Part shown: piece by piece, positions 6,885 through 63,256 of the stretch
Numbering within the stretch: the stretch's first letter is position 1
Layout of the letters: every line of letters begins with the position of its first letter
DNA from: Firmicutes bacterium HGW-Firmicutes-1
GTDB lineage: Bacteria > Bacillota > Clostridia > Lachnospirales > Vallitaleaceae
DNA: 64,000 bases
Assembly: GCA_002841625.1 (NCBI GenBank)
Contig: PHAG01000003.1
Coordinates: 124,001 to 188,000, forward strand
Direction: 5' to 3'
The notes under the pieces: model-generated
Told to the model about the DNA's origin: nothing
Seen by the model: only the letters and a program-made list of their open reading frames with translations
The model's database searches: none
Position numbers and translations under genes: made by a program

Positions 6885-6924
6885 AAAAAAGCATCAGTAT
6901 GTTTTATATACAATACTAATGCTT
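6885..6924 (-). terminator. Intrinsic terminator downstream of trpB
   Basis: AAGCATCAGTAT (6889-6900) pairs with ATACTAATGCTT (6913-6924) with one mismatch, and on the minus strand a run of Ts follows. It lies 275 bases beyond the trpB stop because the family 1 element sits in between. Confidence 0.6.
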
Positions 6925-6963
6925 AAGGTTGTCGACAATCTAATTAATTAACAATTAACGAAA

Positions 6964-7112
6964 CAGAGATAAAAGCATTTTTTCTTCTAGATGAATACAA
7001 AAGGCAGTAAGTGTTCATTTTTCGCTAGACCGGCCGAAGGGTAAGGCCAGAAAAATGAACACTTACTGCCAATAAATGATACACCTATCAGAAAAAATGC
7101 TTTTGTCGACAG
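6964..7112. repeat. Palindromic element family 1, copy A1
   Basis: Outer stem AAAAGCATTTTTTCT (6971-6985) with its exact complement at 7090-7104. Inner perfect 20-bp stem 7003-7022 with 7051-7070. The apex contains GGCC boxes. It is bounded by CAGAGAT on the left and GTCGACAG on the right. It is nearly identical to 25140-25289. No open frame is conserved. Confidence 0.9.
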
Positions 7113-7117
7113 TTGGA

Positions 7118-7155
7118 ATCATCAGTATGTATATAAAACATACTGATGATTTTTT
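7118..7155 (+). terminator. Strong hairpin with a T-run on the plus strand
   Basis: A perfect 13-bp stem, ATCATCAGTATGT (7118-7130) with ACATACTGATGAT (7138-7150), followed by TTTTT on plus. No plus-strand gene lies upstream. It shares CATCAGTATG and the ATATA loop, inverted, with the hairpin at 6889-6924. Confidence 0.5.
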
Positions 7156-8463: not shown

Positions 8464-8514
8464 GGAAAATCGGCTGTTATTCCAAAACCCTCGTTACATA
8501 TCCGCCGCTTTTCC
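8464..8514. repeat. Hairpin repeat family 2, copy in the trpB leader
   Basis: Left arm GGAAAATCGGC (8464-8474) and right arm GCCGCTTTTCC (8504-8514), with CCCTCGTTAC between them. A partial extra arm pair, AAAATCGGT/ACCGTTTT, lies just upstream (about 8427-8454). Matches copies at 24939, 63004 and 63089. Confidence 0.75.
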
Positions 8515-8523
8515 AATTTGCAA

Positions 8524-8565: not shown

Positions 8566-8815
8566 AATAAAAAACACACTCCTTCCTTATTGGGACGAAG
8601 TGTGTAACTCGCGGTACCACCCAACTTAAGCCAATAACTAGTAGCTTATCTTGATTAGATATTAAATATCCTATCTCTTAACGCGAGACTTACGATAACA
8701 GCTACTCTAGTTCACTGTACTCCTTAAGAGCCCATTCAGCATTGGTCTTGTATCGAGCTTCCACCACCCTCGAATCGCTATAAACAATCACAATAATGCC
8801 TACTATTTCTATCAT
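8566..8815 (-). ncRNA. T-box riboswitch, Trp specifier
   Basis: On the minus strand the conserved T-box sequence GGGTGGTACCGCGAG occupies 8622-8608. It is followed by a terminator whose arms include ACACACT and AGTGTGT, ending in a T-run. Stem I shows GAGGGTGGTGGAAGC, and the specifier position reads GAA-TGG-GCTC, with TGG at 8734-8732. TGG matches tRNA-Trp and the downstream trpB gene. The 5' boundary is approximate. Confidence 0.92.
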
Positions 8816-8836
8816 CGGATTTAAAATTTATATATT

Positions 8837-19313: not shown

Positions 19314-20912
19314 TTATTTGATTCCATTAAAGCAAGTATCAATATGCTTGTTTTCGAACTTTGACTTCGTCATGAACGCCACAACTAAGGTTACTAAAAT
19401 CGAAATAGCAAGTGAGATAATAATTGGATCTACAACAGCTAAATTATTGCCAGCAGGAACTAAAGTATCTTTACCAAATAATAAAGAACAAATCTTTAAC
19501 ACCGCAGATTCCTTCGTATGTATAAACATCATCCATAAAACACTTGTTATAAATCCAGCACACATTCCTGAAACTGCTGCTACTTTAGAAAGCTTTTTAA
19601 AATATAACGCTCCTACATATAAAGGTAAAAAGGCAGCGGCACATACTCCGAAGAAGAGTCCAGTACTTATGGCAATCGCACCATCCCAAATGGTTGGCAA
19701 AATATATGCTAGAAGCATAGTGATTAATATTGCTACTAACATACCACCTCTCATTACAAGCATCAATTTCTTTTCATCATCATCTTTTGGTGGAAATAAA
19801 TCTCTTCCAACCGCAGTACCAATGGCATGGAACTGTGAGCTGATTGTAGACATTCCCGCAGCAACAACTACAACAAAGAAGACAGCCATAAACCATTCTG
19901 GCATAAAGGTTTGTAAAAATACTGGAATAACGTTATCAGTTCCTTTGGCTGCAACTACAGCTATTTGGCCAAATTTTTCGAAAAAATATACATTTGAAAG
20001 TGGTCCAACTATAAAAGCAACACCTGTCATCATCAATATAAAAACACCACCCGCTGGAACAGCTCTATTGATTTCGCGATTGCTTTTTACCGTCATAAAT
20101 CTTACAACGAGCTGTGGTTGTGCTAAAACACCAATTCCTACTCCCATAACAATAGAAGAAACAACAACCCACCAATTTGTTGATAAGAAGGTTGGCATCG
20201 CAGTCCAACCATTGAATCCTGGTGGAACTTTTAATTGTTCAAGCACAGCTGGATTGCTCATTAAGTTGGTCAACTTTTGATGTGCTGCACTTACACCACC
20301 TAATCCATGATAAACAGAAATAAGCAATATTGCCATACCTATAAACATAAGACTACCTTGGAAAGCATCAGAATACATAACGCCTTTTATTCCACCAAAG
20401 AAAACATAGATTGCAACAACAATTGCAAAGAAAAAAAGCGCAGCGTTATAGTTAACGCCAAGACTCCACTCAATGAATTTTGCCGCTCCAATCATAACCG
20501 CAGCTGTATAAACTGGCATAAGGAAGAATATAACCGATCCTGCAAACTTTTGAATAAATACAGATTGATACCTTCTACCAATAAATTCTGGAAAAGTATG
20601 CGCATCTAAATTGTGTCCCATTTTCCTTGTTCTTTTTCCAAACAATATAAATGCAATCATGATTCCAAAAAAGATGTTCATAAAGGTTAACCAAAGTAAA
20701 CTCATACCAAATAATGCTGATGTACCTCCGAATCCAATGATGGCTGAAGTACTAATAAAAGTAGCACCATAGGACAAGGCCATTACCATTGGATGTATTT
20801 CTCTTCCGCCAATCATATAATCTTTAGAGTTTTTGGTATGCCTATAGCCTAAGTACCCCAGATATCCAGTAACACCTAGATATAAAAATGTAAATAGTAC
20901 CTTCAATGTCAT
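19314..20912 (-). CDS. Sodium:solute symporter (SSS family), copy 1
   Basis: A 532-residue membrane protein with about 13 helices. It shows the SSS signature around GGREIHPMVMALSYGATFIS and TSAIIGFGG, and the Na2-site helix region VVAAGMSTISSQFHAIGTA. The family imports organic solutes with Na+ (pantothenate, proline, monocarboxylates). The substrate cannot be told from sequence. It follows a 59-residue partner gene by 36 bases. It is strikingly similar to the upstream copy at 21157-22755, with the same length and ends (ENKHIDTCFNGIK against ENKHIETCFNGIK). Confidence 0.93.
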   Translation of the reverse strand: MTLKVLFTFLYLGVTGYLGYLGYRHTKNSKDYMIGGREIHPMVMALSYGATFISTSAIIGFGGTSALFGMSLLWLTFMNIFFGIMIAFILFGKRTRKMGHNLDAHTFPEFIGRRYQSVFIQKFAGSVIFFLMPVYTAAVMIGAAKFIEWSLGVNYNAALFFFAIVVAIYVFFGGIKGVMYSDAFQGSLMFIGMAILLISVYHGLGGVSAAHQKLTNLMSNPAVLEQLKVPPGFNGWTAMPTFLSTNWWVVVSSIVMGVGIGVLAQPQLVVRFMTVKSNREINRAVPAGGVFILMMTGVAFIVGPLSNVYFFEKFGQIAVVAAKGTDNVIPVFLQTFMPEWFMAVFFVVVVAAGMSTISSQFHAIGTAVGRDLFPPKDDDEKKLMLVMRGGMLVAILITMLLAYILPTIWDGAIAISTGLFFGVCAAAFLPLYVGALYFKKLSKVAAVSGMCAGFITSVLWMMFIHTKESAVLKICSLLFGKDTLVPAGNNLAVVDPIIISLAISILVTLVVAFMTKSKFENKHIDTCFNGIK

Positions 20913-21156: not shown

Positions 21157-22755
21157 TTATTTTATTCCATTAAAACAAGTCTCAATATGTTTATTTTCAA
21201 ATTTCGACTTAGTTATAAGAGCTACCACAATTGTTACTAAAATTGAAACGGTCAGAGAAATAATAATAGGATCTACAACTGCTAAATTGCTGCCTACAGG
21301 AGTTAAGGTATCTTTGCCTGTTAAAAAAGAACAGACCTTTAATACTGCTGATTCCTTCGTATGTATAAACATCATCCAAAGTATACTTGTAGTAAACCCA
21401 GCACTCATACCTGCTATTGCAGCGTATTTCGAAAGTTTTTTAAAATACAAAGCGCCTATATATAAAGGTAAAAATGCTGCAGCACATACACCAAAAAATA
21501 GTCCTGTACTGATTGCTATAGCACCATCCCAAATAGAAGGCAAAACAAAGGCAAGGAGAACCGTCATCAATATGGCAATTAGCATACCAATTCTCATAAC
21601 CAGCATCATTTTTTGCTCCTTTTCTTCTTTGTTTGGAAATAAATCTCGGCCAACTGCAGTACCTATCGCATGAAACTGGGAACTTAAGGTTGACATTCCA
21701 GCTGCTACTACTACCACAAAAAATACTGCCATAAACCACTCTGGCATAAACGTTTGAAGAAATAATGGTATAACATTATCTGTTCCTTTTGCAGCAACTA
21801 CTGCTATTTGTTCATATTTTTCAAAGAAATAGACATTTGATAAGGAACCTACTATATATGCAACTCCAGTCATTATTAAAATAAAGACTCCTCCTGCAGG
21901 AACGGCTCTATTGATTTCACGATTGCTTTTCACTGTCATAAATCTTACAACCAATTGTGGTTGTGCCAATGCACCTATACCTACCCCTAAAATAATAGAA
22001 GATACTACAATCCACCAGTTCGTAGAAAGAAAGCTTGGCATTGAAGTCCAACCTCTAAAACCTGGTGGTACCTTTAGTTGTTCTAAGACAGCAGGATTAC
22101 TCATTAAATCGGTCAATTTTTGATGTGCCTGCGATATTCCACCCAATCCTTGATAAACCCATACAAGTAAAATGATCATACCAACAAACATAAGCCCACC
22201 TTGAAAGGCATCTGAATACATTACCCCTTTTAGTCCACCAAAAAAAACATATACACCTACAATGATTGCAAAGAAAAACAATGCTATATTATAGTTGACA
22301 CCTAAACTCCATTCAATAAACTTAGATGCACCAATCATTACTGCTGCTGCATAAATTGGCATTAGAAAAAAAATGACTAAGCCAGCAAATTTTTGAATGA
22401 AAACAGATTGAAATCTTCTTCCAATAAATTCTGGAAAAGTATGCGCATCTAAATTGTGTCCCATTTTTCTAGTCCTTTTTCCAAAAACAATAAATGCAAT
22501 GATAATTCCAAATACGATATTCATTAGCGTTAACCAGAGCAAGCTCATCCCAAATACAGATGATGTCCCACCAAAACCGATGATTGCAGAAGTACTGATA
22601 AAGGTTGCTCCATAGGATATAGCCATAATCATTGGATGGATTTCTCTACCCCCAATGAGGTAGTCATTCGAATTTTTGGTATGCTTAAAACCTAAATAAC
22701 CAAGAAATCCTGTAATTCCTAAATACAATATTGTGAAAATAATTTTTAAAGTCAT
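21157..22755 (-). CDS. Sodium:solute symporter (SSS family), copy 2
   Basis: 532 residues with the same SSS signatures as copy 1 (GGREIHPMIMAISYGATFIS, VVAAGMSTLSSQFHAIGTA). Differences are scattered and conservative, consistent with an older tandem duplication rather than an assembly artefact. ATG 22755 follows GGGAGG. It lies first in transcription order after its own small partner, behind a near-consensus promoter at 23042-23070. The two copies may differ in affinity or substrate; sequence alone does not say. Confidence 0.93.
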   Translation of the reverse strand: MTLKIIFTILYLGITGFLGYLGFKHTKNSNDYLIGGREIHPMIMAISYGATFISTSAIIGFGGTSSVFGMSLLWLTLMNIVFGIIIAFIVFGKRTRKMGHNLDAHTFPEFIGRRFQSVFIQKFAGLVIFFLMPIYAAAVMIGASKFIEWSLGVNYNIALFFFAIIVGVYVFFGGLKGVMYSDAFQGGLMFVGMIILLVWVYQGLGGISQAHQKLTDLMSNPAVLEQLKVPPGFRGWTSMPSFLSTNWWIVVSSIILGVGIGALAQPQLVVRFMTVKSNREINRAVPAGGVFILIMTGVAYIVGSLSNVYFFEKYEQIAVVAAKGTDNVIPLFLQTFMPEWFMAVFFVVVVAAGMSTLSSQFHAIGTAVGRDLFPNKEEKEQKMMLVMRIGMLIAILMTVLLAFVLPSIWDGAIAISTGLFFGVCAAAFLPLYIGALYFKKLSKYAAIAGMSAGFTTSILWMMFIHTKESAVLKVCSFLTGKDTLTPVGSNLAVVDPIIISLTVSILVTIVVALITKSKFENKHIETCFNGIK

Positions 22756-23297: not shown

Positions 23298-23346
23298 AGT
23301 ACTGAGCGCGTTGCTCTATTACGTTTTTAAAGGAGTAAACATTGTT

Positions 23347-24765
23347 ATGCATAAAACCAAAATTATTTGTACTATAGGGCCAGCCAGTGATACACCGGAA
23401 ATTTTCAGAGAACTCGTATTAAATGGTCTTAGCATTGCAAGAATTAACTTATCTCATGGAGATCAGCCTTATATTCAGCATAGAATTAATGTAATAAAAC
23501 AAGTTAGAGAAGAACTTAATATTCCTGTAGCCATATTATTAGACACACGTGGCCCAGAAATCCGAACAAAAAGTTTTGTCGACGGTAAAGCTACGCTTGT
23601 AGCTGGCAAAGAAATCACCCTATATAATGGTGATTTTGATGGAACAGAAGAAAGCTTCTGCATTACCTATAACAAATTATATAAAGACGTTTCTAAAGGC
23701 AATATTATTTTATTAGACGATGGTTTAATTGAACTGGAAGTTATCGATGTGAAAGACAAGGCGATTCATTGTCTCATCAAAAATGGTGGCGTTTTAAAAA
23801 ATAAAAAAGGCATTAATGTACCAGGTGTTTTCATTAATTTACCTGCATTAACCCAAGACGATATTGATGATATCCTTTTTGGAGTTAAGCTTGATGTGGA
23901 CTTTATTGCTGCTTCTTTTATTCGAAAAGCAAGTGATGTTCTTGAAATCAAAGAGCTTTTAACAAAAAATGGTGGCGAAGGCATCCAAATTATCTCTAAA
24001 ATCGAAAGTCAAGAAGGCGTAGATAATATTGATGAAATCATTGCTGTTTCAGATGCAATTATGATTGCTAGAGGTGATTTAGGAGTCGAAATACCAACCG
24101 AACTGATTCCTTTAACTCAGAAAATGATTATTGAAAAATGCAACATTACTGATGTACCTGTAATTACTGCAACTCAAATGCTTGATTCTATGATTGTAAA
24201 TCCTAGACCAACAAGAGCAGAAGTATCTGACGTTGCCAATGCTGTACTTGACGGGACAGATGCCATCATGCTTTCTGGTGAAACAGCTGCTGGCGCTTAT
24301 CCAATAGAAGCTGTAAAGGTTATGAGAAAAGTTGCTCAGGCTTCAGAAGATTCCCTAAACTATAAACAAATGCTAATAAGAATCTCTAAAGTTCAAGACA
24401 ATAATATAGCAAATGCAGTAAGCTACTCTACTTGTAGTACAGCTATGAATTTAAATGCGAAAGCAATCATTTGTCCGACACATAGCGGAAAAACAGTTAG
24501 ACTGATTGCGATGTTTAGGCCAAGTGTTCCTATCATAGCTTTAACAACAAACGAGAGAACACAAAGACAAATGCAGTTGAGTTGGGGCGTTATTCCTATT
24601 CTTATTGCAGAAGAAACTTCTTCTGATGTTTTGTTTTATAAATCTATTCAAAAGGCAAAATCTATGGGCCTAGTGGCTCCAAAGGATTTGGTTATTATAA
24701 CTGCTGGTATTCCTCTTGGGGTAGCTGGTTCGACGAATCTTATGAAGGTTCAGGAAGTTGAGTAA
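23347..24765 (+). CDS. pyk: Pyruvate kinase
   Basis: A 472-residue enzyme making pyruvate and ATP from PEP and ADP. Visible elements are the N-terminal TKIICTIGPAS, the substrate loop ARINLSHG, LLDTRGPEIRT, the active-site lysine and metal ligands in ISKIESQEGVDNIDEI, and MIARGDLGVEI. The start is ATG 23347, about 12 bases after AAAGGAG; an upstream extension to 23311 is not supported. It is the standard length, without the extra C-terminal PEP-utiliser domain of many Bacilli enzymes. It is a single gene behind an extended -10 promoter. Confidence 0.96.
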   Translation: MHKTKIICTIGPASDTPEIFRELVLNGLSIARINLSHGDQPYIQHRINVIKQVREELNIPVAILLDTRGPEIRTKSFVDGKATLVAGKEITLYNGDFDGTEESFCITYNKLYKDVSKGNIILLDDGLIELEVIDVKDKAIHCLIKNGGVLKNKKGINVPGVFINLPALTQDDIDDILFGVKLDVDFIAASFIRKASDVLEIKELLTKNGGEGIQIISKIESQEGVDNIDEIIAVSDAIMIARGDLGVEIPTELIPLTQKMIIEKCNITDVPVITATQMLDSMIVNPRPTRAEVSDVANAVLDGTDAIMLSGETAAGAYPIEAVKVMRKVAQASEDSLNYKQMLIRISKVQDNNIANAVSYSTCSTAMNLNAKAIICPTHSGKTVRLIAMFRPSVPIIALTTNERTQRQMQLSWGVIPILIAEETSSDVLFYKSIQKAKSMGLVAPKDLVIITAGIPLGVAGSTNLMKVQEVE

Positions 24766-24794
24766 AAAGTGATGAAGTAGTTATAAAGTAAAGT

Positions 24795-24918
24795 TGTCGA
24801 CAAAAGGGTTATATATACATGTTTTTTCCGCTCTGTTGCACCATCCTGGTGCAAAGTCGCGCGCTGCGCCATCCATGGCTCCGCTGTCAAACATATATAT
24901 ATAACCCTTTTGTCTCTG
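24795..24918. repeat. Palindromic element family 1, copy A3 (divergent interior)
   Basis: It begins TTGTCGACAAAAGG and ends CTTTTGTCTCTG, the inverted ends of copies A1 and A2. The stem pairs 24799-24824 with 24889-24914 at 25 of 26 positions, but its sequence (GGGTTATATATA) differs from the other copies. The interior is GC-rich, with a GCACCA/TGGTGC hairpin. Confidence 0.8.
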
Positions 24919-24938
24919 TAATGTTTCCTATTAAACAA

Positions 24939-25019
24939 GAAAATCGGCTGCGCAGCGTTAAATAACATTGTTATTTATACGCCGAGTTAAAACTCTCGTT
25001 ACCTATCTGCCACTTTTCC
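24939..25019. repeat. Hairpin repeat family 2, longer variant
   Basis: Left arm GAAAATCGGC (24939-24948) and right arm TGCCACTTTTCC (25008-25019), with CTCTCGTTACCTAT inside. About 30 extra bases expand the loop compared with the copies at 8464, 63004 and 63089. Confidence 0.65.
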
Positions 25020-25139
25020 AATTGCATATGCATATCTATCCTTGTAAACAAAAAAATAGCTAGCTATTAGCATAAAATATTACTAGTAAAGAAATCATTA
25101 TGAAATAATGATACCGGTTTTTGACAATTCAATGAGAAG

Positions 25140-25289
25140 CAGAGACAAAAGCATTTTTTCTTCTAGATTAATACAAAAGGCAGTAAGTGTTCATTTTTCG
25201 CTAGACCGGCCGAAGGGTAAGGCCAGAAAAATGAACACTTACTGCCTAATAATGAATACACCTATCAGAAAAAATGCTTTTGTCGACAG
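25140..25289. repeat. Palindromic element family 1, copy A2
   Basis: Nearly identical to 6964-7112 over 150 bases. Outer stem 25147-25161 with 25267-25281; the inner 20-bp stem and GGCC apex are conserved. Ends are CAGAGAC and GTCGACAG. The few differences lie mainly in the unpaired segments. Confidence 0.9.
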
Positions 25290-25312
25290 TCTAACTCATT
25301 ATGTTGTCTATT

Positions 25313-26476
25313 CTATTGCTTTACCTCTTCAATGGTATTAGGTGCGTTTTTTGATTTGATTGCTCTGTTAAGATAAGCGGCAACGATGGCGGTGAAAGGT
25401 ATTGTGATAACAAGACCAATGGTGCCTGCGAGGGCTCTTACGATTTCTACTACGATCATGTCGTAATTTATAGTTTCTATCAGTGGCTTATTATAAGCAA
25501 GTATTAAGATTAATATGTTTAGGGAGGAGCCAGTATACGCTAGAATTAAGGTGTTTACCATTGTACCCATGATGTCTCTGCCTATATTCATACCTGATTG
25601 AAATAGTTGCTTGATTCCCATATTAGGATTTGCTGCTTTTACTTCAACAATTGAGGAAGATATGGACATACTAACATCCATGACTGCGCCTAAAGCACCT
25701 AATAGGATTGATGCAAAAAGAAGGCCACTAAAATTAAATTGCGTACCTTGGGGGATAAATGTAAGTTGTTGAACCTCTTCATAGGTAAAACCAATTAGCT
25801 TTGCATAATTGCTGAAGGTATATGCTAAAACACCTGCTACAAGCACACCTGCTAGAGTACCAAGGATGGAGGTTAAAGTTTTTTTGCTAAAACCACTTAT
25901 AATCATGATAGTCGTAATTGAAATTAACGTAGCAATCAGAACTGACAATATAATTGGGTCATCTCCCAATAATATTCTTGGCAAGAAAACCTTTAGTACC
26001 AATACTACAGTTAATATAAGTGAAATCAATGCTTTTAAACCTTTTAATCTTCCTATAGCTACTACCAATATTATAAAAATCGCAATTAAGTAAATAATAA
26101 ATCTGTCTCTTTTATAGCTTACTATGTAGGCATTGGATACGATGGTTTTACTTTCATCCAATTCAAGATATAGCAAAACCTCATCACCTACATGGGCTTC
26201 AATATGAGGCGTGGAACTTTCAAAAACATCCTCAATATTTATTTTTTGATCTTTATAACGTGCATCTGTTATGATCGCAACATATTTTATGCTTGTGGTT
26301 TCATAGCCCGTATTGTTCTTTGTTGTTTTACCTAATTCTTCAGTTATTTTCGCGCTATACAGTTCGCCCTCTGGGTTCAAATGGTTCCCTTTGGTTGGTT
26401 GTATTAGAACCCACACTAAAATACCAACAGCTAAGATAGCAATTCCATATTTCATCCATTCTTTTTTTAGATTCAT
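25313..26476 (-). CDS. YibE/F family membrane protein
   Basis: About 387 residues: an N-terminal helix, an extracytoplasmic domain (about 30-120) and roughly seven membrane helices, matching the YibE/F family of unknown biochemical function. The start is uncertain: ATG 26476 has GGTG about six bases upstream, while ATG 26488 has no room for a ribosome site. It lies two to fifteen bases after ntpD ends and has no promoter of its own, so it appears to be the last gene of the V-ATPase operon. This context hints at a membrane role tied to ion or energy balance, which is inference. Confidence 0.82.
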   Translation of the reverse strand: MNLKKEWMKYGIAILAVGILVWVLIQPTKGNHLNPEGELYSAKITEELGKTTKNNTGYETTSIKYVAIITDARYKDQKINIEDVFESSTPHIEAHVGDEVLLYLELDESKTIVSNAYIVSYKRDRFIIYLIAIFIILVVAIGRLKGLKALISLILTVVLVLKVFLPRILLGDDPIILSVLIATLISITTIMIISGFSKKTLTSILGTLAGVLVAGVLAYTFSNYAKLIGFTYEEVQQLTFIPQGTQFNFSGLLFASILLGALGAVMDVSMSISSSIVEVKAANPNMGIKQLFQSGMNIGRDIMGTMVNTLILAYTGSSLNILILILAYNKPLIETINYDMIVVEIVRALAGTIGLVITIPFTAIVAAYLNRAIKSKNAPNTIEEVKQ

Positions 26477-26490
26477 TCTCTTCACCATAC

Positions 26491-63003: not shown

Positions 63004-63055
63004 GGAAAATCGGCACGTTAAACTATAACCCTCATTTCCTAAATGCCGCTTTTCC
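63004..63055. repeat. Hairpin repeat family 2, copy before spoVA
   Basis: GGAAAATCGGC (63004-63014) and GCCGCTTTTCC (63045-63055), with AACTATAACCCTC between them. A stray left arm sits at 62975-62985. Confidence 0.8.
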
Positions 63056-63088
63056 AACCGCTGTACACAAAAACCTTCTACACCCTTA

Positions 63089-63140
63089 GGAAAATCGGCA
63101 CGACAAACTATAACCTTCGATATCTAAATGCCGCTTTTCC
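63089..63140. repeat. Hairpin repeat family 2, tandem copy
   Basis: GGAAAATCGGC (63089-63099) and GCCGCTTTTCC (63130-63140). It is almost identical to the copy 85 bases away, including ACTATAACC and CTAAATGCCGC. Confidence 0.8.
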
Positions 63141-63256
63141 AACTGCATTCGCTTTCCTCCTATTCTCTCTTCCTCCTATACTCTCTTCTTTCTATTCTCG
63201 CGTTTCCAATTACTCTAAACAAATAAGAACCTCACCTATCTAACCCTGCCATAATA

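Follow-up and report, generated by a model that had tools for sequence, protein, structure and literature searches.

The 64,000-nucleotide stretch of the Firmicutes bacterium HGW-Firmicutes-1 genome analysed here (the window; C3:124001-188000 in an assembly of 33 contigs totalling 3.95 Mb) contains, at positions 24795-24918, a near-perfect palindrome that is probably one copy of a non-autonomous mobile element, similar to a MITE (miniature inverted-repeat transposable element), with a modular interior and with two types, A and B, that share the terminal sequence CAGRYTGTYGACAA or its inner part. The palindrome in the window is of type B and carries a core belonging to the candidate RNA family RF01731 (TwoAYGGAY). 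Evidence for mobility comes from the dispersal of both types around common ends, from their absence at orthologous sites in a genome of the same genus and from the duplicated hairpins that flank a number of copies.

A type B element in the window

The palindrome occupies an intergenic gap between the 3' ends of two genes, named by eye as pyruvate kinase (23311-24765, plus strand) and a YibE/F-like gene (25313-26488, minus strand). Repeat finding places the arms of its outer stem at 24799-24824 and 24889-24914, each 26 nucleotides (nt) long and 96% complementary to the other, in agreement with the 25-of-26 pairing stem reported in a first-pass annotation made from the sequence alone. Folded as single-stranded DNA (ssDNA), the palindrome reaches -33 kcal/mol (z -8.41), a value equalled by none of 200 shuffles. 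Its borders carry the words GTCGACAAAAG (24796-24806, plus strand) and CTTTTGTC (24907-24914), the latter followed by TCTG to give CTTTTGTCTCTG. The annotation was right that two further elements in the window share these words, which stand here in inverse orientation, and that the interior is unrelated to theirs. Those elements are of type A: A1 (6926-7113, plus strand) has both ends, long matches of other copies covering positions 24 to 210-211 of the query, and A2 (25136-25290, plus strand; C3:149136-149290), which matches A1 at 95%, lies in the same intergenic region as the palindrome in the opposite orientation. On the minus strand, 24792-24921 matches RF01731 in a cmscan search with 50.1 bits against a gathering cut-off of 43, spanning the full model (1-168). 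The alignment places the first AYGGAY hairpin at 24868-24879 (GCCATGGATGGC on the minus strand) and the second at 24836-24854 (minus strand). The loop ATGGAT of the first is intact, whilst that of the second is shortened to AGGAT, with its GGA kept.

Copies, ends and interiors

A BLAST search with A1 yields at least 41 strong type A copies in the same genome (E at most 2.4e-57; 40 of 87 candidates scored), and a search with a type B copy yields nine of type B (E at most 1.7e-13). A longer repeated unit is common to at least three of the type A copies (L138, L181 and L186) and one copy in G001, a genome of the same genus; the type A copies concerned are counted here as ordinary ones. In type A a hairpin around GTTCATTTTTC...GAAAAATGAAC forms the interior, and in type B a core of the RF01731 kind does so; the two are unrelated, which bears out the earlier description of conserved ends around an exchanged but still self-complementary interior.

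Within the window the border words are weakly above chance, with four matches to GTCGACAAAAG at no more than one mismatch (0.56 expected) and seven to CTTTTGTC (3.45 expected). Across the genome, CAGAGAYAAA occurs at 76 sites and TTTGTCGACA at 42, against 20 and 16 for the reversed controls. Thirty-one left words and 30 right words pair on one strand, in the right order and 98-180 nt apart, where some 0.06 pairs would be expected; no pair is found in the wrong order or on opposite strands, and the spacing is mostly 109-114 nt (mainly type B) or 135-140 nt (type A). The shared words thus occur beyond chance and at palindromes, as the annotation had supposed. The longer end CAGRYTGTYGACAA is found at 70 sites with at most one mismatch, against ten for its reversed control, and forms 16 inward pairs less than 6 kb apart, ten of them at 176-207 nt; twelve type A copies have inward end pairs at 137-269 nt (at most one mismatch).

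In type A the right (R) end directly abuts the palindrome, whereas the left (L) end lies beyond an AT-rich left arm of about 45 nt. From this layout, GTCGACAAAAG is a true outer end and makes up the inner portion of an inverted repeat, CAGRYTGTYGACAA, whilst CTTTTGTCTCTG is internal, the meeting point of palindrome and left arm some 45 nt inside the other type A end. The first-pass view of the two words as ends therefore holds for the first only. In the window the R end is CTTTTGTCGACAAC on the minus strand (24793-24806), the inner part of the repeat that is complete, as CAGATTGTCGACAA, in the type B copy on C8, and CTTTTGTCTCTG (24907-24918, plus strand) is assigned to the junction by comparison with type A copies, which run on to their L end. 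All nine type B copies have the R-end word, and a second end is clear in one; a left arm of the type A kind, sought in each, scores above its 95% control in one of the nine (L150).

The cores are also found without these ends, in other stems: that of type A in G001 and at C3:193884 of the window's genome, related A-like cores in genus g8 of the family (in yet other stems), and RF01731 cores in the window's genome at C6:64977 and C6:312402, neither of which reaches the cut-off. On this evidence interior exchange runs both ways. The description of the interior as replaceable cargo is upheld insofar as unrelated interiors stand under shared ends, but the interior is not arbitrary, belonging as it does in type B to a known RNA family.

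A scan of an 84,980-species collection for the end pair, which may have left out records close to the window's genome, returned 47 stretches, and only one of these (L105, a type A element in a metagenome-assembled genome of the same genus) has the palindrome, with a stem score of 18 against 8-14 for the rest. Ten other stretches, from Clostridia, were set aside as one common conserved region unrelated to the window element. A plasmid collection searched with A1 and with the window type B element gave no match, and Rfam microRNA matches on A2, all below their cut-offs, were dismissed as generic matches to a long hairpin.

Several further observations concern these interiors. The type A core hairpin (TTCATTTTTC..GAAAAATGAA) stands without ends, between other complementary stems, at L214 1501-1548, L216 1501-1549, C3:193884-193929 and L199-L210, and two species have an end-less core of this kind at what seems to be the same orthologous site, the changes between them being compensatory. 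Among loci L199-L210 of genomes G016, G008, G012 and G019, GGTCCCATGAAAACCCTTCCACAG and CAGGAACTTCATGGTCGATGTTGG words are found close to some A-like cores of another genus and may mark a further element chassis. One type A copy (L349 930-1170; C14:110630-110870) has an internal deletion between two AAAAATG words, leaving a shorter, still complementary palindrome with similar hairpin-like flanks.

Empty sites and duplicated hairpins

The pyruvate kinase protein of G001 is 89% identical to that encoded in the window (about 83% over that DNA). Sixteen percent of the G001 genome plus the pyruvate kinase locus was compared, and both flanks were found at eight loci holding eleven type A or B elements: the window pair (type B and A2), A1, C3:200189, C3:193622, C6:236256 (type B), the A-A-B cluster at C6:47641-48217, C6:57609 and C6:64632. 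G001 lacks all eleven. At the locus of the window pair, the intergenic region of G001 is short and holds a plain hairpin in place of the two elements. At A1, C3:200189 and C3:193622 it has one terminator-like hairpin where the window's genome has two copies, one each side of the element; at A1 these are 36 nt long on the L side (6889-6924, plus strand) and 35 nt on the R side (7117-7151, plus strand). A core-only hairpin near C3:193622 is kept in both species. Within the compared part of G001, a search with A1 gives four type A copies at other sites and two hairpins made up of the core only, whilst a type B query finds nothing at E 1e-3.

Flank repeats, direct and inverted, were scored in the 26 type A copies whose L end could be recognised (36 of the 41 having been caught by the comparison of ends and arms, and ten of these left out for want of such an end), with all mismatched pairs, or shuffles, as controls rather than a tree. 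Direct repeats have a mean score of 20.5 against 12.1, with 11 of 26 copies above the 99th percentile. By eye, eight of the 11 lie on predicted hairpins and mostly span them, the aligned repeat lengths being 35-36 nt (A1), 31-32 (L126), 25 (L066), 24-25 (L012), 23 (L069 and L011), 22 (L125) and 13 (L036). In L066, L125 and L036, read from the gene, the element has cost the nearer hairpin copy its T run and the farther copy keeps one; in L126 both keep it. By a crude longest-ORF (open reading frame) rule for gene context, 32 of 36 type A copies (p 2e-6) and seven of nine type B copies have their R end towards the 3' end of a gene; for the L end the same holds in 14 of the 33 type A copies with a called neighbour.

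One type B copy shows the same arrangement. The element at C8:47399-47708 is longer, with the palindrome at one side, TTCTCGACAGTCTGA at its end and AAGCGTTCTTTTGAACGCTTT beyond it on both sides; the hairpin copies are identical over 21 nt and lie 331 nt apart, start to start. We take this copy, one of nine, as evidence that the machinery of type A is open to type B as well. Some of the type A copies and one of type B are thus set between two copies of a terminator-like hairpin, and the absences at orthologous sites and the flank duplications together indicate that the A and B elements are apparently mobile. For the type B copies on C12 and in the window, the closest end that faces outwards on the far side belongs to a type A copy, of which it is the R end, and therefore the two types may travel together. 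The far end of the composite on C8 (L350 960-1360; C8:47360-47760) has its own hairpin right by the inverted repeat, a third interior under the same ends.

A number of observations weigh against mobility of this kind. No flank repeat above control is found in 15 of the 26 type A copies, through age or otherwise (L030, with 20-22 nt on a hairpin, is among them), and inverted repeats also exceed their control in six of 26 (mean 18.2 against 12.2), as palindromic targets would also give. Of the three direct repeats above control that were not placed on hairpins, that of L004 folds poorly and that of L129 weakly, and the 11-nt repeat of L132 was not folded. Folding with z below -2 in the 50 nt beside the R end is seen in only nine of 36 type A and two of nine type B copies. 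Within about 110 nt of the palindrome none of the nine type B copies has a flank repeat above control, and within 700 nt one has; the window copy has no repeat against its far side (score 20, 95% control 24). In G001, absence at C6:57609 and C6:64632 is less telling because other DNA is carried there; beside the hairpin at the C6:47641 cluster an end-like word, TTTGTCGACAACC, is kept; and at C3:200189 only 13 nt align, the R-side copy being decayed and forming no hairpin.

The R flanks of L016, L063, L128, L138, L181 and L186 are alike (CACCAACTATAACTGGTG-like), perhaps through a repeated target or a larger element.

The RF01731 core and its possible function as RNA

Among 59 related genomes (the window's own included), ten have RF01731 matches at E at most 0.01, 45 matches in total, of which seven in three genomes lie above the cut-off. 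Seven positive genomes have three to ten matches each, and none of 14 control genomes has any. Among the copies compared by eye, those of one genus resemble each other in their stems and short asymmetric termini, and those of different genera do not. An alignment of 26 copies (made without L226, L228, L229, L242 and the eight type B copies other than the window's) has its invariant columns in or beside the two hairpins and none in the outer stem; the GGA of the first loop and the G of the second are invariant, and the GA of the second nearly so. In the available parts of the literature searched, which leaves subscription papers outside, there is no account of RF01731 as a mobile element or of hairpin-sized duplications. 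A single-hairpin palindrome with GCGCACGGACGCGC, resembling half a TwoAYGGAY core, is present at L214 around 1750-1900 (G001 C28).

CsrA binding has been proposed as the role of this candidate RNA (in the available part of PMC4333381), and the type B copies might accordingly be kept as functional CsrA-binding RNAs, their spread as repeats being incidental. GGA can be read at both loop positions in all nine, the stems change on two sides, and the copy at C6:312402 has an ortholog at the same place in G001 with its loops kept. A CsrA gene is encoded in the window's genome and in all ten RF01731-positive genomes; the gene is so common in the order, however, being present in 49 of the 59 genomes (p 0.13), that the co-occurrence proves nothing. 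Against such a role, the window's copy is the only one of the nine in type B that the RF01731 model finds with E no higher than 1; the other eight have a shortened first hairpin, and the type B consensus fold lacks that hairpin. In seven of the nine, a transcript running on from the gene at the R end would be of the strand that lacks AYGGAY, and the gene on the L side reads towards the element in three, with none called in four. No promoter-like site was found in a scan of 24700-25400. On account of the p value, the shortened first hairpin, the wrong strand in seven of nine and the missing promoter-like site we rank mobile DNA first and consider RNA function as the principal explanation rather unlikely, although it may be an addition for some copies, that at C6:312402 for example.

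The annotation had called for the interiors to be examined for covariation, and the type B stems do covary: 98.2% of cells are paired and 11 pairs have two-sided changes, against 1.9 in shuffles (none of 500 reaching this number) and at most one when the alignment is slid, whilst for further pair types the excess is not as clear (13 of 500). Stems could also be kept self-complementary by template switching or arm-to-arm conversion that repairs imperfect palindromes, as opposed to a selected or recognised structure. Either process would produce two-sided changes in any palindrome, and the stems here differ freely between copies and genomes. Conversion alone does not account for loops that keep GGA whilst their stems drift, and as the whole explanation we consider it improbable. 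Because the consensus structure was predicted on the same nine sequences, and because template switching could mimic the pattern, the result shows that pairing is maintained but does not speak to the cause.

Transposition and known systems

Taken as a whole, the reading in the annotation (common ends, exchangeable cargo and an enzyme acting in trans) is supported in part. What speaks for 'in trans' is the lack of coding space in the elements; the enzyme itself was not found. No transposase-like frame, and hence no candidate for the locus bearing these ends or for a MITE parent, was seen by eye inside the inward pairs among the 70 end sites, a result that also weighs against mobility and that was obtained with no search aimed at IS1202-type transposases or at Y1/RAYT (REP-type) proteins. 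It is weak evidence because multi-copy insertion sequences can drop out at contig breaks in an assembly such as this. Only one of the 16 inward pairs exceeds 300 nt (3,526 nt, C10:27375-30901), and this consists of two separate type A copies; it was rejected as a composite transposon, enclosing by eye hydrolase-like, sensor-kinase-like and response-regulator-like frames and no transposase. At L361 879-4414 (C10:27378-30913) the two type A copies have the same orientation around the three host-like genes.

The elements share much with the pneumococcal MITEs RUP, BOX and SPRITE, which are mostly shorter than 200 nt, non-coding, bounded by inverted ends and stably folded, with an excess between convergent genes; SPRITE is terminator-like, and target duplication could not be established for it (available part of PMC3049150). 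Here too the elements are small and non-coding, with many dispersed copies and, in type A, inverted ends. Target duplication is indicated in type A by the 11 of 26 copies above control and the three empty sites with a single hairpin, and in type B by one copy in nine. Unlike the pneumococcal MITEs, one set of ends encloses two unrelated structured interiors, and the duplications are the size of a terminator hairpin. As to RF01731, the likeness lies in a long outer stem that encloses two hairpins, one of which has an intact AYGGAY-type loop and the other a shortened one in the window's copy, and in the score of that copy above the gathering cut-off; the difference is that the module sits within a dispersed, apparently mobile element with transposon-like ends.

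The closest published behaviour found is that of a subgroup of the IS1202 family with long target duplications (16-28 bp), for which the available part of PMC10132070 reports that the target was not found. The ends of that family are TGT...ACA, whereas here a conserved CAGRY precedes TGT and, being both conserved and inverted, is taken as part of the ends; the family was set aside as parent on end sequence. A different comparison is offered by the group IIC introns. These insert just after terminator hairpins, but they are RNA retroelements that have an intron core and are not known to duplicate their target, and an element of 120-190 nt has no room for such a core.

How such an element might move can be sketched as follows. 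A transposase encoded elsewhere, or since lost, would recognise the ends and, to judge from duplication length only, would nick the two strands at opposite bases of a target hairpin, so that gap repair would duplicate the hairpin whatever its length. The interior would be tolerated as long as it is palindromic, and an RF01731 core could in this way replace a type A core. Insertion would presumably be nearly neutral because a copy of the hairpin stays beside the gene. Taken further, and tentatively, since we regard the full proposal as possible but doubtful, this might be an undescribed transposition system that recognises intrinsic terminators by their structure, cleaves at either base of the hairpin, duplicates it (about 21-36 nt here) and moves any palindrome lying between its ends, with RF01731, the candidate CsrA-binding RNA, as mobile cargo loaded into different ends in different genera and scattered through genomes. 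If true, this would supply a mode of spread for a family of unknown function and explain an outer stem without conserved sequence. It would also lay down where such elements insert (terminator hairpins) and how long the duplication is (as long as the hairpin), and these two rules might apply to the IS1202 subgroup.

Single-strand mobility of the IS200/IS605 or REP/RAYT-like kind, in which a subterminal palindrome with asymmetric ends is recognised as a ssDNA hairpin, fits the asymmetric termini beside the palindrome in type B and in the RF01731 copies of other genera, as well as the lack of a flank repeat near the type B palindrome. It is quite unlikely as a general account, given the inverted terminal repeats of type A and its hairpin-sized direct repeats, to which one type B copy adds its own; these repeats disfavour, for type A, a route by way of the REP-type nuclease that the annotation named as one enzyme to look for. 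A chance palindrome or an ordinary bidirectional terminator, as the position between two convergent genes might suggest, is hardly credible, for the nine type B copies and the pairing of end words weigh decisively against it, as do the shared ends, the RF01731 match, the absence from G001 (which has a plain hairpin there) and a scan of 24700-25400 in which no terminator-like site was found.

Other features of the window

A dispersed repeat ending in CTTTTCCAA occurs at 8476-8516, 24981-25021, 63017-63057 and 63102-63142, the second of these copies lying between the type B element and A2. A T-box leader (RF00230, 103.7 bits) is found at 8588-8824 on the minus strand, and 19314-20912 and 21157-22755 form a tandem pair of similar 532-amino-acid membrane-protein genes, sodium/solute symporter-like by eye.
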